Assembly: GCF_022761125.1 (NCBI RefSeq)
Contig: NZ_JAKWJR010000007.1
Span: 248,001-312,000 of the forward strand
Source of the DNA: Nocardioides sp. SR21
GTDB taxonomy: Bacteria; Actinomycetota; Actinomycetes; Propionibacteriales; Nocardioidaceae
Direction of reading: 5' to 3'
DNA length: 64,000 nucleotides
The notes under the pieces were generated by a model, which saw nothing but the letters and a program-made list of their open reading frames with translations, was not told where the DNA came from and ran no database searches. This document shows, piece by piece, positions 21,869 to 28,992 of the stretch (within the stretch, counting starts at the first letter, position 1; each line of letters begins with the position of its first letter). The translations under genes were made by a program, and so were the position numbers.

Positions 21869-22744
21869 TCAGTCCGACGTCCAGTCGAACACGTAGTTGA
21901 GCCGCGTGTCCTTGGTGATCATCGGCGAGATCGTGTTGAGACCGGTCGCGACGCCGCCCAGGTAGCGAGCGAAGAACGCCTTCGAGGAGTCCTGCACGAT
22001 GTTCGAGCCGGACAGCACCATGTCGTGCTTCGCGCCGGACAGCTCGATCTTGCCCTTGGGGAAGGTCATGGCGTTGTAGACCGCACGCGAGTTGGCGGGA
22101 GCGATCGTGGTGTCGGCGGTGCCGAGCATCACGAGGATCGGCGGGGCGTCCGTCCACGACGGCTTGCCCTCACGCGCCCACGGGGAGCGGAGCACGAAGG
22201 CCTTGATGCGCTTGTCCCGCACGGTCGGGTCCTGCATGGTGACGCCGGTGATCGCGCCGTTGGAGCCGCCGTAGTAGCCGACGCGGTTCGGCAGGACGCC
22301 GGCGGTCAGGCTGGGAGCGGCCAGCACGGCGTCGAGGGCGCGGCTCATGAGGCGGGCCTTGTTCGTGTACGACGACTGCGCGTCCATGTTCGAGCTCACC
22401 GTGACGTAGCCCGCCTTGTTGAGGAACGCGCCGTTGTTCATGACGTTCGCCATGTTCGATCCCATGCCCATCCCGTGCCCGATGAGCACGACCGGGCGCT
22501 TGGGGGCGATCGCGCCGTTCACCGTGGGGTAGCGGACGTGGACGGCCTCGCCGGCCGTGGTCTTCAGCGTCGTGGAGCCCGTGGTGGAGAAGGAGGCCGT
22601 CTGCGGCGACGGGTTCGGGTCCGTCGTGGTGGCGGCCTTAGCCGCGGACGGCGCCGGGACGGCCGCGCCGGAGGAGGCGAGGGTCGCGGCGGTGGTGACG
22701 GACAGCGTGGAGCAGAGGAGAAGAGCCCCGAGAGCCTTTTTCAT
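21869..22744 (-). CDS. Secreted alpha/beta hydrolase
   Basis: 291 residues from ATG 22744; AGGAG lies 11 nt upstream, a little far. A signal peptide (MKKALGALLLCSTLSVTTAATLASSGAA) and a Thr/Pro-rich linker precede the hydrolase domain. Landmarks are the oxyanion loop VVLIGHGMGMGSNMANV, the nucleophile elbow YYGGSNGAITG with Ser between two Gly-x positions, the acid Asp in MLGTADTTI and the His in SGAKHDM. It is an exported esterase or lipase-like enzyme; the substrate is unknown. It shares a 164-bp divergent promoter region with the MMPL gene. Confidence 0.83.
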   Translation of the reverse strand: MKKALGALLLCSTLSVTTAATLASSGAAVPAPSAAKAATTTDPNPSPQTASFSTTGSTTLKTTAGEAVHVRYPTVNGAIAPKRPVVLIGHGMGMGSNMANVMNNGAFLNKAGYVTVSSNMDAQSSYTNKARLMSRALDAVLAAPSLTAGVLPNRVGYYGGSNGAITGVTMQDPTVRDKRIKAFVLRSPWAREGKPSWTDAPPILVMLGTADTTIAPANSRAVYNAMTFPKGKIELSGAKHDMVLSGSNIVQDSSKAFFARYLGGVATGLNTISPMITKDTRLNYVFDWTSD

Positions 22745-22908
22745 GAATGCGGTCACTCCTGGTGTGGTGTTGGACTTGCGCTGGGTGCATCGGTCACGGG
22801 CGCGCGATGATGAGAGCCGCGGGGGCCGGATACCTGTTATTGGGGATGCCGGCACGGCCCCCGACCGCGCCATCCTCGAAGGACCGGACGGCCCGGAGGG
22901 ATGGTGCG

Positions 22909-25878
22909 ATGGCGCGGCTCCTGCACGCCCTCGGCCTGTTCTGCGCCCGGCACGGACTCGTCGTGATCTGCGTGTGGGTGCTGCTGGCGGCCGGCGTCGG
23001 CGTCGCGGTGTCGACCGTCGGCGCGCAGACGAACAACGACCTGTCGCTGCCCGGGACCGGCAGCCAGGCCGCCAAGGACCTGCTCGAGGAGCGGTTCCCG
23101 CCCCAGCAGAACGGCGTCAACCCGATCGTCTTCGACGTCTCGACGGGCACGCTGAGCGACGAGGCGAACGCCAAGGCGGTCTCGGCCTCGGTCACGGCGA
23201 TCGCGCAGGTCGCCCACGTCCACAGCGTCACCGACCCGATGAGCAGCGCCGGCCAGACCGCCGGCCTCCTGGCCGAGGACGGGCAGACCGCGTTCGCGCC
23301 GGTGCTGCTCGACATCGGGTCGGGCGACCTCACCGTCGAGATGGCCCAGGACGTCGTGGACGCGACCGCACCCGCCCAGGAGGCGGGCATCACGGTCGAG
23401 GCGGCGGGCTCGATCGGCTCCACCCTGTCGACCGACGACTCGGAGACCAGCGAGATCGTCGGCATCGTCGCCGCGATGTTCATCCTCAGCTTCGTGCTCG
23501 GCAGCCTGGTGGCGATGGGACTGCCGATCCTGACGGCGGTGGCCGGACTCGGCGTCGCGCTCGGCGTCGTGGGGCTGCTCGGCCACGTGCTCGCGATCCC
23601 GTCGAGCGGGCCGACCCTGGCCACGATGATCGGGTTGGGCGTCGGCATCGACTACGCGCTGTTCCTCATCACGCGGCACCAGGACAACCTCCGGAGCGGG
23701 GCGTCGACCGACGACTCCGTGGCTCAGGCGGTCGCGACGTCGGGGAGCGCGATCGTCTTCGCCGGGTGCACGGTGGTCGTCGCGCTCCTCTCGCTCAGCG
23801 TGGCCGGGATCCCGCTGGTGAGCACCCTCGGACTCGCCTCCGCGATCGCGGTCGTGGCGGCGGTCCTGGTCGCGATCACGCTGCTGCCGGCGCTGCTCGG
23901 GCTGCTCGGGCACCGGGTCAACTGGTTGGCGCTCCCGGGGTTCATGCGCTCGACGCACACGCACAAGGGCGGTGTGTGGGAGCGGTGGGCCGGCGTCGTG
24001 CGCCGGCACCCGGTCGTCGTGACCGTCGTGTCGCTGGCGGCGCTGGTCCCGCTCATCATCCCGGCGTTCTCGCTGGAGCTCGGGCAGGAGGACGTGGGCG
24101 CCACCTCGCCCGAGACCACGGAACGCCGGGCCTACGACCTGATCACCGCCGGATTCGGCGTGGGCTACAACGGTCCGCTCCAGGTCGCCTCGGAGCTCGA
24201 CCCGGTAGCCGCGCCCAGTGACGAGTACACGCAGAAGTACGACGAGGCGCAGTCGCTCCAGGCAGACCTGGAGAGCAAGCAGAAGACGCTCACGAAGCAG
24301 AAGCAGCGGCTCGAGGAGCAGCAGGCACAGCTGGAACAGGAGCAGGAGCGACTCCAGTCGGAGCAGGCCGAGCTCGAGCAGCAGCGCGACGAGCTCCGGG
24401 CGCGGCAGGCGGCGCTGGAGGACGAGGCCGCGGCGCTCGAGGAGCAGCAGGCCCGCCTCGAGAGCCGCAAGGCCGCCTTGGAGCGGCAGGCGGAGGCCCT
24501 GGCCGACCGGGCCGGGCCGCTCGTACGGCACCTGGCGCTGCTCGACGTGCGCGAGCGCGTCCTCGAACGCCGGATCGACCGAGCCCAGGACCACCCGGAC
24601 CGGCTCGCTCGGCTGCGGGAGCGGCTCGCCAGGGTGCGCGACCGTCAGGCGGACGTCCGCGCGCGGCTGGCGCCGCTGGAGCAGCAGGCGCGCCGTCTCG
24701 CCGACGAGGCGCGCCAGCTGGAGGCCGAGGCCGACCAGCTGCGGCAGCAGGCCGCCGAGCTCGAGCGGCAGAAGGGCGAGCTGGAGCAGGAGGCGGCGGA
24801 CCTCCAGCGGCAGGCCGACGAGCTCCAGCGGCAGGCCGCCTCGTTGAAGCAGCAGGCGGCCGCCCTCCAGGCGCAGGCCGACGAGCTGAAGGCGCAGCAA
24901 CAGCAGGCGCAGCAGGAGAAGAAGCGGGCCGAGAAGCTGAAGCAGGAGCTCACCGACATGGTGACCGCTGCCGGCGGCGACCCGCGCGGGACGGATCCGC
25001 GGGTCGTGAACCTCCAGCAGGGTCTGACCGCGACGCCCGGGGTGGTCGCGCTGACCCCGCCCCAGCTGAACGAGAAGGGCGACGTGGTCCTGCTCTCGGC
25101 CGTCCCGGTCACCGCGCCCGCCTCCGACGACACCGCCGACCTCGTCGGCCTCGTCCGCGACACGGTCCTGCCCGACACCAACGCGGGCGCGGGCATCACG
25201 TCGTACGTCGGCGGCTACACGGCGTCGTACGTCGACCTGGCCTCGCTCATCTCCGCCCGGCTGCTGCTCGTGATCGGGACCGTCATCGGCCTCGGCATGC
25301 TGCTGCTGATGATCGCGTTCCGATCGCTGCTGATCCCGCTGCAGGCGGCGATCACCAACCTGCTCTCGGCAGCGGCGGCGTTCGGGGTCCTGACCGCCGC
25401 GTTCCAGTGGGGTTGGGGGATCTCCCTGCTCGGGATCGACACCGCCGACAGCAGCGTCCCGATCGCGAGCTACGTGCCCCTGATGATGTTCGCCGGCCTG
25501 TTCGGTCTCTCGATGGACTACGAGGTCTTCCTGGTGAGCCACGTGCAGCAGCACCACCACGCCGGCGAGGCCGCTCGCGAGGCGGTCCGCTCGGCCCTGG
25601 GGGCGAGCGCGCGGATCACCACGGCGGCGGCGCTGATCATGGCGTCGGTGTTCGCCAGCTTCATCCTGGAGAGCGACCCGACGATCAAGCAGTTCGGGGT
25701 CGGCCTGGCAGTAGCGGTGCTGCTGGCCGGCATCCTGGTCGTCACGCTCGCGCCGGCCGTGCTCGTGCTCTGCGGGCAGGCCGCCTGGTGGCTGCCGCGC
25801 TGGCTGGACCGGCTCCTGCCGCACGTCTCGATCGAGGGCGACGGGGAGGGCGACAGGGGAGCGGTGCCCCGCAGATGA
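22909..25878 (+). CDS. MMPL (RND-superfamily) exporter with a giant extracytoplasmic coiled coil
   Basis: 989 residues from ATG 22909, preceded by GGAGGG. TM1 is at about 12-36, the first porter domain at about 37-170, and TM2-TM6 at about 180-345 with the family motif GLGVGIDYALFLITRHQ. TM7 lies near 370-390 and TM8-TM12 in the last 230 residues (second signature GLFGLSMDYEVFLVSHVQQ). Between TM7 and TM8 the second porter domain contains about 245 residues (about 440-683) of near-perfect heptads, very rich in Gln, Glu, Leu, Ala and Arg, with a short break near 540. MMPL proteins export lipids or siderophores using proton motive force. Mycobacterial MmpL4/5 also carry a coiled coil in this loop, which bridges the periplasm. 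The substrate here is unknown. Confidence 0.9.
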   Translation: MARLLHALGLFCARHGLVVICVWVLLAAGVGVAVSTVGAQTNNDLSLPGTGSQAAKDLLEERFPPQQNGVNPIVFDVSTGTLSDEANAKAVSASVTAIAQVAHVHSVTDPMSSAGQTAGLLAEDGQTAFAPVLLDIGSGDLTVEMAQDVVDATAPAQEAGITVEAAGSIGSTLSTDDSETSEIVGIVAAMFILSFVLGSLVAMGLPILTAVAGLGVALGVVGLLGHVLAIPSSGPTLATMIGLGVGIDYALFLITRHQDNLRSGASTDDSVAQAVATSGSAIVFAGCTVVVALLSLSVAGIPLVSTLGLASAIAVVAAVLVAITLLPALLGLLGHRVNWLALPGFMRSTHTHKGGVWERWAGVVRRHPVVVTVVSLAALVPLIIPAFSLELGQEDVGATSPETTERRAYDLITAGFGVGYNGPLQVASELDPVAAPSDEYTQKYDEAQSLQADLESKQKTLTKQKQRLEEQQAQLEQEQERLQSEQAELEQQRDELRARQAALEDEAAALEEQQARLESRKAALERQAEALADRAGPLVRHLALLDVRERVLERRIDRAQDHPDRLARLRERLARVRDRQADVRARLAPLEQQARRLADEARQLEAEADQLRQQAAELERQKGELEQEAADLQRQADELQRQAASLKQQAAALQAQADELKAQQQQAQQEKKRAEKLKQELTDMVTAAGGDPRGTDPRVVNLQQGLTATPGVVALTPPQLNEKGDVVLLSAVPVTAPASDDTADLVGLVRDTVLPDTNAGAGITSYVGGYTASYVDLASLISARLLLVIGTVIGLGMLLLMIAFRSLLIPLQAAITNLLSAAAAFGVLTAAFQWGWGISLLGIDTADSSVPIASYVPLMMFAGLFGLSMDYEVFLVSHVQQHHHAGEAAREAVRSALGASARITTAAALIMASVFASFILESDPTIKQFGVGLAVAVLLAGILVVTLAPAVLVLCGQAAWWLPRWLDRLLPHVSIEGDGEGDRGAVPRR

Positions 25879-25909: not shown

Positions 25910-25938
25910 TTGACCGGGTGGCCCCTGGCACACAGGAT
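25910..25938 (+). promoter_or_regulatory. Housekeeping-type promoter of the S8 protease gene
   Basis: TTGACC (25910-25915) and CAGGAT (25933-25938) are separated by 17 bp, the optimal spacing for a vegetative sigma factor. A leader of about 80 nt would precede the coding region, which has a GAGGGA ribosome site, unlike the leaderless genes nearby. Confidence 0.5.
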
Positions 25939-26025
25939 CACTCTGGTCCCTGGTGTTCCGGGGGCACACGGTCGGCCGGCCGCCGATCGTCCGGTTTGCT
26001 CTGGGAATCGAGGGAAATCTTGTCT

Positions 26026-28992
26026 GTGTTCCATCTCGGGCGGGTCAGGCTTGCCGTGCTCGCGCTGACGCCCGTCGTCGCGCTCAGCACCGCCCTGGCG
26101 GGTGCGCCCACGTCCTCCGCACAGTCCGCAGGGAAGGACGTCGCCCCGGTCGACGCGGCCCGCGCCGCGTTCGGCAGCGAGCCCCTCCCGGAGGCGGGCG
26201 TCTACAACGTCATCCTGAAGGCTCCTCCCTCGGCGTCGTACGCCGGAGGCCGCAAGGGCTACGCCCGGACCGCGCCGGCTACCGGCGGGTCGTTCAGCCC
26301 CCGGTCGGCCGCGGTGCAGCAGTACGAGCGGCTCCTGGCCAACCAGCAGGACCGGCTCCTCCAGCGGGTCGGCGACCCGACCACGATCTACCGCTACACC
26401 ACGGCGCTCAACGGGTTCTCCGCCCAGCTCACCGGCGCCCAGGTGCTCGCGCTCCGCAAGGACGCCAGCGTCCTGACGGTGAACCCGCAGGAGCACGTGG
26501 TCGCCAACACCGTGCACACTCCCGAGTTCCTGCACATGAGCGGCAAGAAGGGGCAGTGGGCCAAGCACGGCGGCACGGCCAAGGCCGGCAAGGGCGTCGT
26601 CGTCGGTGTCATCGACACCGGCATCTGGCCCGAGAACCCCTCGTTCAAGGGCAAGAAGGGCCCCGTGAGCGTGCCGGGCTTCTACGGCACCTGCGAGGCC
26701 GGTGAGGACTTCCCGGCCACGACCTGCAACTCCAAGGTGATCGGCGCCCGCTACTACGACGCCTACACCGAGGGCAAGGAGCTCGCCGAGACCGAGTACC
26801 GCTCGCCGCGCGACGGTGGCGGCCACGGCTCGCACACCGCCTCGACCGCGGCCGGCAACTACGGCGTCAAGGTCAAGATCGAGGGTCAGGACTTCGGCAA
26901 GGCCTCGGGCATGGCGCCGGCCGCCATGATCTCGGTCTACAAGGTGCTGTGGAGTTTCGAGGACGACTCCCAGGACGGCGGCAGCGACGTCGACATCATC
27001 GCGGCGATCGACGACGCGGTCAGCGACGGCGTGGACGTCATCAACTACTCGATCGGCAGCACCGGCGGCGGTGACGCCTTCACCGACGCCAGCAACCTGG
27101 CCTTCATGAACGCCTCCGTCGCCGGCGTGTTCGTGGCGACCTCGGCGGGCAACGACGGCCCGGACGCCACGACCGTGGGTAACAACGGCCCCTGGCTGAC
27201 CACGACGGCGGCCAGCACGTCGTACAACTACCAGGGTGGCGTGGTGCTCGGGAACGGCGCCAAGTACGTCGGCGCGATGGTCAGTGACAAGGCCGTCCCG
27301 ACCAGCCCGTTCGTGTATGCCGCCGACGTGGAGGTCCCGGAGTCCGAGGACGACGGCCTCTGCGGCCCGGACTCGCTGGACCCGTCGAAGGTCGAGGGCA
27401 CGATCGTCGCCTGTGACCGCGGCGTCTACGACCGGATCGCCAAGAGCGCCGAGGTCGCGCGTGCCGGAGGTCTCGGCATGGTGCTGCTGAACGTCAGCGA
27501 CAACAGCATCGACGCGGACTTCCACGCGGTCCCGACCGTGCACATCAACGTGCCGGACGCCGACGCGGTCTACGCCTACGTGACCGAGGACGCGAACCCG
27601 ACGGCCCGGATCAACCCGGCCCTGGCCGACAACACGCCGGTGCCCCAGATCGCCGGGTTCTCCTCGCGCGGCCCGGCCGCCGCCGGCGCCGGTGGTGGCG
27701 ACATCATCAAGCCGGACATCGCGGCTCCGGGTGTCAGCGTCGTCGCCGCGGTCGCACCGCCCAGCAACCACGGGCACAAGTGGGACCTCTACTCCGGCAC
27801 GTCGATGGCATCGCCGCACATCGCGGGCCTGGCCGCCTTCATCCACCGGCTCGAGCCGTACTGGAGCCCGGCCATGATCAAGTCGGCGATGATGACGACG
27901 TCGTACGACCTCAAGGACGAGGCCCCGTCCCCGTTCGCGCAGGGCGCCGGTCAGGTCGACCCGCGGAAGTTCCTGGACCCGGGCATCGTGTTCGACGCCC
28001 GCGGTGCCGACTACCTGAACTTCCTGTCCGGTCAGGGCGTCACCACCGCCACCGGTGCGCCGCTGACGCCGAACCCCATCGACGCCAGCGACCTGAACCT
28101 GCCGTCGATCGGCATCGGTGACCTCGTCGGCACCCAGACGGTGACCCGTCGGGTGACCAACGTGTCGGGCAAGAGCGAGACCTACACGATCGGCTCGACC
28201 GGCCTCGACGGCGTCACCGTCGCCGCCGAGCCGGCGTCGATCAGCGTCCCGGCTGGCGCGACCCGGAGCTTCAAGGTCACGCTGACCGCGGAGAACGACG
28301 CCGCGTTCGGCGAGTACACCACCGGCAAGCTGACCATGACCGGGAACCGCGGCCACAAGGTCCAGCTCCCCGTGCAGATCAAGCCGGAGGCGCTGGTCGC
28401 CGACGACGAGGTCGTCGGGACGGTCCCGAACGGGACGGCCACTGTCGAGGGCCTGGCGGGCTTCTCCGGCTCGATCGACCTCAAGCCCTCGGGCCTGGTC
28501 GGTTCGACGCCGGTCGTCCAGGACCTGCCCGCGGGTGGGTTCGACTACCAGGCGCCGAACGCCGACGCGGACACCTTCAAGTCCACCGTGGTGGTGCCCG
28601 AGGGCTCCTCGGTGCGGTTCCGCACCGACGGTGACCCGGATGACGACCTGGACCTGTGGGTCTACCTCGACGGCGAGCTGATCGGCTACTCGGCCACGGC
28701 GAGCTCCGACGAGGTCGTCACCGGCATCGGCGTCCCGGCCGGCACCTACGAGGTGTACGTCAACGCCTTCGCCGCCGGCGAGGGTGCGGCGACGATGCGC
28801 TACGACCAGTGGGTGGTCGCCGACGGCACCGACGCCGGCAACCTCGACCTCGACCCCGACCCGCTCACGGTCGAGACCGGTGAGCCGTTCTCGTACACCG
28901 CGAGCTGGACGGGACTCGACGAGGCGAAGAACTGGTTCGGGTACGTCACCTACGGCGATCGCGACATGCACACGATCGTCCAGGTCGACTAG
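26026..28992 (+). CDS. Secreted subtilisin-like (S8) serine protease with PA domain
   Basis: 988 residues from GTG 26026, 10 nt after GAGGGA; a TTG at 26020 is an alternative. A signal peptide (MFHLGRVRLAVLALTPVVALSTALAGAPTSSA) precedes an I9 inhibitor propeptide (about 60-165; YNVILKAPP...YRYTTALNGFSAQLT). The catalytic triad is Asp197 (GVIDTGIW), His267 (GGHGSHTAS) and Ser593 (GTSMASPH), with oxyanion Asn in ATSAGNDGP. A PA domain is inserted before the Ser (about 440-540). A C-terminal Fn3-like region and a jelly-roll/PPC-like segment follow. The layout resembles plant cucumisin-type subtilases found in actinobacteria. It is an extracellular, self-processed protease. Confidence 0.93.
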   Translation: MFHLGRVRLAVLALTPVVALSTALAGAPTSSAQSAGKDVAPVDAARAAFGSEPLPEAGVYNVILKAPPSASYAGGRKGYARTAPATGGSFSPRSAAVQQYERLLANQQDRLLQRVGDPTTIYRYTTALNGFSAQLTGAQVLALRKDASVLTVNPQEHVVANTVHTPEFLHMSGKKGQWAKHGGTAKAGKGVVVGVIDTGIWPENPSFKGKKGPVSVPGFYGTCEAGEDFPATTCNSKVIGARYYDAYTEGKELAETEYRSPRDGGGHGSHTASTAAGNYGVKVKIEGQDFGKASGMAPAAMISVYKVLWSFEDDSQDGGSDVDIIAAIDDAVSDGVDVINYSIGSTGGGDAFTDASNLAFMNASVAGVFVATSAGNDGPDATTVGNNGPWLTTTAASTSYNYQGGVVLGNGAKYVGAMVSDKAVPTSPFVYAADVEVPESEDDGLCGPDSLDPSKVEGTIVACDRGVYDRIAKSAEVARAGGLGMVLLNVSDNSIDADFHAVPTVHINVPDADAVYAYVTEDANPTARINPALADNTPVPQIAGFSSRGPAAAGAGGGDIIKPDIAAPGVSVVAAVAPPSNHGHKWDLYSGTSMASPHIAGLAAFIHRLEPYWSPAMIKSAMMTTSYDLKDEAPSPFAQGAGQVDPRKFLDPGIVFDARGADYLNFLSGQGVTTATGAPLTPNPIDASDLNLPSIGIGDLVGTQTVTRRVTNVSGKSETYTIGSTGLDGVTVAAEPASISVPAGATRSFKVTLTAENDAAFGEYTTGKLTMTGNRGHKVQLPVQIKPEALVADDEVVGTVPNGTATVEGLAGFSGSIDLKPSGLVGSTPVVQDLPAGGFDYQAPNADADTFKSTVVVPEGSSVRFRTDGDPDDDLDLWVYLDGELIGYSATASSDEVVTGIGVPAGTYEVYVNAFAAGEGAATMRYDQWVVADGTDAGNLDLDPDPLTVETGEPFSYTASWTGLDEAKNWFGYVTYGDRDMHTIVQVD

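Follow-up and report, generated by a model that had tools for sequence, protein, structure and literature searches.

What is a coiled coil of some 250 residues doing in an outer loop of an MMPL exporter, and does it descend from the hairpins of the mycobacterial MmpL proteins? The question arises from a gene of Nocardioides sp. SR21 that lies at positions 22909–25878 (+) of the window, the 64,000-nucleotide stretch of contig NZ_JAKWJR010000007.1 analysed here. It was approached through structure prediction, phylogeny, comparison with orthologs and inspection of the neighbouring genes.

A helical hairpin inserted in PD2

The open reading frame encodes 989 amino acids plus a stop, and the product is by its sequence an MMPL/RND exporter. 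Pfam MMPL (PF03176) matches it above the cut-off in two stretches (7.1e-79), and hydropathy peaks fall at the usual MMPL/RND places with large loops after TM1 and TM7; coordinates, domain match and hydropathy all agree with the original prediction of an MMPL exporter carrying a coil in its second outer loop. A Shine-Dalgarno-like GGAGGG, read from the sequence (22895–22900, +), precedes the ATG by 8 nt, and the start residue is common to most orthologs in the alignment, where the start codon is ATG or GTG and the aligned part of locus L032 begins at residue 11. The count of 12 TM helices follows the family pattern, with approximate boundaries, neighbouring helices being fused in the hydropathy plot. 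The first extracytoplasmic domain, PD1 (aa ~41–177; 23029–23439, this and all following parts of the gene on the + strand), is likewise bounded only approximately by hydropathy peaks. The TM4 pair Asp248-Tyr249 (23650–23655) is invariant in seven aligned ortholog rows, and the TM10 pair Asp870-Tyr871 (25516–25521) is identical in full-length orthologs, L034 ending before it. We take D248-Y249, a D-Y pair of the MmpL3 type, to be the one expected to carry protons, and the conserved D-Y pairs suggest that the exporter would be proton-driven.

The second porter domain, PD2, is split. Its first part (aa ~393–437; 24085–24219) includes strand beta1, NGPLQVASEL, and its second part (aa ~688–773; 24970–25227) comprises the AGGDxRGTD linker, alpha1-beta2 and beta3-alpha2. 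Between them lie 250 residues (aa 438–687) of the second extracytoplasmic loop, flanked by the hydropathy peaks of TM7 and TM8. They abound in Ala and Leu as well as in Gln, Glu and Arg, the three already noticed on first inspection, and form about 33 near-perfect heptads. The earlier count of more than 30 repeats is thus borne out in number, but the heptads follow two separate registers, one per arm, instead of one. In the up arm (447–558), a large hydrophobic residue (Leu) occupies one heptad position in 15 of 16 repeats, and Ala occurs in 8/16 at one non-core position; in the down arm (563–687), a large hydrophobic residue is found at one position in 15/17 repeats, its partner position being mostly Ala. 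For each arm, the Fourier signal at 3.5 residues was stronger than in 2000/2000 shuffles; at period 7, it exceeded all 2000 shuffles for the up arm and was matched by 5/2000 for the down arm. I/L/V/M recurred every seven residues 15 times without a break, the longest such run in 1000 shuffles being 7, and many of the Leu positions 7 apart are invariant among seven aligned ortholog rows. Each helix bears a single strong hydrophobic seam with charged or Gln residues at the flanking positions, a pattern that would fit a stand-alone two-stranded rod.

AlphaFold2, applied to residues 428–694 alone, predicted helices at 438–558 and 563–688 with a mean pLDDT of 91, and the full-length protein returned the same hairpin (438–558, 563–687; pLDDT 74–90 over residues 441–680). 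The insert is, in these models, one antiparallel hairpin, made up of an up-going helix of ~121 residues (aa 438–558; 24220–24582), a 4-residue turn (aa 559–562; 24583–24594) and a down-going helix of ~125 residues (aa 563–687; 24595–24969). The coil of about 245 residues first proposed is real, its heptads outperforming the shuffles, but because the two arms are antiparallel the predicted rod measures ~18 nm (at 1.5 Å per residue), half of what 245–250 residues suggest. As the transporter core of the full-length model is unreliable (mean pLDDT 53, most TM blocks below 50, from an alignment of seven rows), the rod's orientation to the membrane was taken from topology, and by RND topology it would point outward. 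A fold search with the isolated hairpin returned generic long coils of SMC and chemoreceptor proteins as top matches, with E at most 0.001 in 1/809; their likeness is one of shape only. No PDB entry was matched by sequence at E 1e-6.

Probable separate origin and patchy distribution

A tree of 48 MMPLs, built after removal of both kinds of coil, placed 13/13 coil-bearing relatives in one clade (support 100), nested among coil-less MMPLs and joined to the one at L012 by a split with support 100, and nine mycobacterial coil-bearing MmpLs in a separate clade (support 100); an earlier tree of 44 sequences separated the two in the same way. Constraining both kinds of coil together cost 244 log units (p-AU 6.7e-10; constrained tree from a fast search). 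The insertion sites, too, lie about 33 residues apart in a profile alignment (hhalign, E 2e-6 and 3e-5), the insert following strand beta1 and preceding alpha1-beta2 in the Nocardioides-type clade, and following alpha1-beta2 in the mycobacterial one. RND porter domains usually have a ferredoxin-like fold, in which the beta1 and beta2 ends lie on the same sheet edge, so that rods from either site could point the same way. Since the clades are separate and the insertion sites differ, PD2 has most likely acquired a hairpin on two or more occasions, and the hairpins of the Nocardioides-type and mycobacterial MmpLs are most likely of independent origin. The coil-less MMPLs of Nocardioides and relatives (e.g. 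L012 of genome G024) represent the sister transporter core at 46% identity, with the two PD2 parts joined directly.

MmpL4 and MmpL5 of mycobacteria are also MMPL exporters with a long, outward-pointing antiparallel helical hairpin in PD2 ('PD3'). Their hairpin has ~195 residues against 250 here, and it differs in having a Cys pair at the tip, a Met-rich composition and MmpS4 or MmpS5 as partner, besides its insertion site and clade. The original prediction had regarded it as a shorter related device: the Nocardioides rod is indeed predicted to outreach that of MmpL5, but insertion site and phylogeny argue against relationship by descent. In a comparison of nine rows of each kind, large hydrophobic residues made up 18–23% of the coil in the Nocardioides-type clade versus 25–39% in the mycobacterial one, and Met numbered 0–4 (one in the window protein) versus 2–20. 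Cys was absent from these nine coil-clade rows and from the 15 rows used for arm comparison, with 2–3 in the nine mycobacterial rows. The nine long-insert MmpLs examined from the Mycobacterium-like genome G158, which may or may not include MmpL10, form a clade apart.

The statement that no MmpS-like gene is adjacent can be extended, the MmpS profile PF05423 finding no match in the whole genome, although a divergent partner would escape it. As a positive control, the same profile matched 20/197 genomes of the class, including nine of genus g12 with 6–17 matches each. In G080, a distant coil carrier, a weak MmpS-like match (G080:C9:16964-17380, 4.4e-5, just above the cut-off) was recorded on a contig other than that of its coil gene.

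The source genome (4.8 Mb) holds 21 MMPL-domain matches in 11 genes. Ten of these, including the window gene, aligned to the coil-less core, with a long coil in the window gene only; the eleventh (C28, an open frame of 633 aa) gave no BLASTP match to that core. The nearest named carriers of the gene are Nocardioides sp. Root1257, N. soli, sp. YIM 152315, sp. YR527 and uncultured Nocardioides. The coil-bearing gene was detected in only 5/59 Nocardioides genomes (E at most 1e-100), and its function is therefore dispensable within the genus. Wider searches (E at most 1e-95) gave matches in 6/118 genomes and 6/72 genera of the class, the coil being spanned in five and the sixth (G087) being a contig-edge fragment without it; in 4/100 genomes of the phylum, the copies of G284 and G354 being broken by a frameshift or stop; and in 3/27 genomes of the class of G318. 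The source genome is counted in the genus, class and phylum tallies, and G318 in both the phylum tally and that of its own class. In a Thermoleophilia MAG, the gene, coil included, runs up to the contig end at 49% identity. The distribution of the coil-bearing gene is patchy, and no paper on coil-bearing MMPLs outside mycobacteria was named among those listed from open-licence PMC.

Matched arms, tip and gene neighbourhood

Arm lengths were counted from YNGPL to the turn and from the turn to AGGD, the turn being set by eye from the sequence and the AlphaFold model of the window protein. In Nocardioides they were 138/125 in the window protein, 145/132 at four loci and 152/139 at two, with a difference of -13 in 7/7 measured orthologs; indels in the coil of the Nocardioides alignment rows correspond to heptads, except for two extra turn residues in L032. 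Across 13 coil-bearing sequences down to 46% identity, the two lengths correlated at r = 0.98, as computed on related rows uncorrected for kinship, and the difference was -12 to -14 in 12/13, the exception being L102 (-8). These statistics omit L032 (turn two residues longer), L110 (414 residues between anchors), L106 (anchor pattern unmatched), L033 (same record as L011), the frameshifted MAG genes L103 and L104, and two fragments, L035 and L111. With somewhat different anchors, the arm difference came to -14 for L032, -11 for L034, -5 for L102 and L103, -23 for L104 and -10 for the other Nocardioides rows; L102, L103 and L104 fit the matched-arm pattern less well. The paired growth of the arms supports the hairpin independently of the structural model, since in an antiparallel pair a heptad added to one arm should have a counterpart in the other.

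Evolutionary rates differ between coil and core, with dN/dS values of 0.49–0.58 and 0.23–0.33, respectively, in four pairs. Within Nocardioides, conservation is higher at the coil ends (0.70) and in the turn region (0.72) than along the intervening arms (0.56–0.63); among 15 relatives in a gap-free comparison, the coil ends agree at 0.47 and 0.52 and the middle at 0.30. At the turn, most distant relatives have DP or NP. The tip module (aa 535–587; 24511–24669) is Arg-rich, with 15 Arg among 53 residues and a net charge of +6. A positive tip is found in 8/8 Nocardioides orthologs, and the charge ranges from -6 to +15 in the family. A basic, wall-binding tip was considered as a mechanism for the whole family and rejected, the tip being basic in Nocardioides, L105 and L109, and near neutral or acidic in L034, L102, L107, L108 and L110. 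As the tip charge is not family-wide and the tip dN/dS is variable (0.37 to 0.84), a model with a single wall ligand is weakened. Two relatives have peculiar tips: L110 (genome G156) has a coil of ~400 residues with three successive tip-like units (PTDPAV.., SSDPAV.., ATDPVV..), as if triplicated, and L104 (genome G284, a frameshifted MAG gene) has two Cys about nine residues apart near the coil tip, reminiscent of the MmpL5 tip disulfide.

The divergent gene upstream (21869–22873, -), proposed to be a secreted hydrolase, has an apparent signal peptide by eye and a likely start Met at 22744, leaving a gap of 164 bp to the MMPL gene; it had no Pfam match at 1e-5. It was found at none (0/7) of the separate ortholog loci whose upstream sequence extends for 4.8 kb or more (tblastn, E 1e-8; L029, L030, L031, L032 = L045, L033, L043 and L034; L044 and L035 are without upstream DNA), and is not a conserved partner. 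Directly downstream (25918–28992, +) lies a large subtilase with S8, PA and fn3 domains, which was not found beside orthologs either. Apart from the MMPL gene, the only neighbours in the window that match anything beside orthologs are a response regulator (generic matches of 33–41% identity beside L043 and L044) and a histidine kinase (31%, beside L044). Some neighbours recur between pairs of loci, among them a GT87 glycosyltransferase (L030/L031) and a DUF4185-bearing protein (L029/L030/L043), one member of each having been assigned by Pfam. A conserved operon partner was sought and none was kept across the ortholog loci examined, so the locus gives no pointer to a substrate.

Reach and possible role of the stalk

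The rod is predicted to exceed the needle of MmpL5, whose tube, according to PMC12501195, measures ~13 nm, with ~18 nm from membrane domain to tip, and ends at the peptidoglycan layer; in PMC12346298, by contrast, the tip lies within the mycomembrane. It is not the longest in residues, and the idea of an unusual insert length is weakened by MmpL10 of M. smegmatis, an exporter of a trehalose polyphleate precursor, whose similar-sized insert spans 255 residues (480–734) and whose coil trimerises the pump, as described in PMC12183618. For B. subtilis and S. aureus, the inner wall zone has been reported, though with dispute, to measure 22 and 16 nm, respectively (PMC8141598). A hairpin of ~18 nm is comparable to these zones of two Firmicutes and not to a whole wall; atop PD2, it could plausibly extend to the inner surface of the wall rather than cross it. 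The original prediction of a rod that may cross a thick wall to deliver a lipid is a guess. Of the open-licence PMC papers listed for Nocardioides walls, apparently none deals with their thickness.

We favour, with a probability of about 0.5, a proton-driven MMPL/RND exporter that independently gained a rigid antiparallel stalk at the outer edge of PD2, serving to position or tether the exit of the pump. Each protomer would carry on PD2 one self-standing hairpin extending ~18 nm into the gap that separates membrane and peptidoglycan; the base would act as a conserved coupling point to PD2, the tip would touch wall material or a wall protein, and the stalk would most likely hold the pump exit in the wall. 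A further possible role of the stalk is to lead a hydrophobic or amphiphilic substrate outward along three bundled hairpins. Computation supports the assignment to the exporter family, the hairpin, the heptad-matched arms, the independent origin, the different insertion site and the lack of a detectable MmpS gene; by analogy with MmpL5 and MmpL10 we infer a trimer, and contact with the wall and any substrate are extrapolated as well.

Less probably, three hairpins would form a six-helix tube through whose lumen the substrate passes to the wall, as proposed for MmpL5. Such tubes have been described for MmpL5 and MmpL10 from cryo-EM, negative-stain EM or models (for MmpL10, ~140 Å in the model and ~150 Å by negative stain; PMC12501195, PMC12346298 and PMC12183618), the proteins share a family and carry the hairpin on the same domain, the additional Ala positions of the up arm could permit close packing, and the fold search with the hairpin retrieved MmpL5 (9mvz) as one of its weak matches (rank 46, E 0.073). 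Against this stand the single seam per helix with its charged or Gln flanks and the absence of a Met-rich lumen, and no MmpS was detected that could clamp a trimer. Of the two, the self-standing stalk is the likelier, because the coil has neither the Met-rich lumen nor the tip cysteines of MmpL4/5 and is predicted to fold alone, whereas the MmpL5 hairpin is fully ordered only with MmpS5 bound, according to PMC12346298.

An unlikely role for the coil is mainly to join protomers or sense the wall, outside the substrate path. In gel filtration, MmpL10 behaved as an apparent trimer and, once its coil was deleted, as an apparent monomer (PMC12183618), and the coil ends are kept better than the middle family-wide; yet a heptad-matched rod of 250 residues far exceeds the needs of trimerisation, and the length class varies inside one genus. 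The notion of a low-complexity expansion with little function, the loop tolerating a Gln/Glu/Arg-rich repeat, would account for repeat-like sequence in GC-rich DNA, a coil evolving faster than the core and the much longer insert of L110, but it is largely refuted by the matched arms of relatives down to 46% identity in several families and classes; with Leu invariant every seven residues and dN/dS below 1, it is highly improbable.

The main new point is an origin of the hairpin most likely separate from that of the mycobacterial MmpLs. We put forward as a speculation, itself rather doubtful, that PD2 hairpins arose separately in mycobacterial MmpLs and in a wider actinobacterial clade as a general way to reach the peptidoglycan layer and not an outer membrane, acting as a ruler that grows in whole heptads on both arms and is tuned to the gap between membrane and wall. 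Nocardioides is not known to have a mycolate outer membrane (mycomembrane). The purpose of the mycobacterial needle is disputed between a tip that stops at the peptidoglycan (PMC12501195) and one within the mycomembrane (PMC12346298). The Nocardioides exporter would represent a soil-bacterial version without a detected MmpS, whose hairpin looks stable alone and in which the relation of length to function is testable heptad by heptad. An independent and longer hairpin in such a genus argues against access to an outer membrane as the main purpose of these devices.
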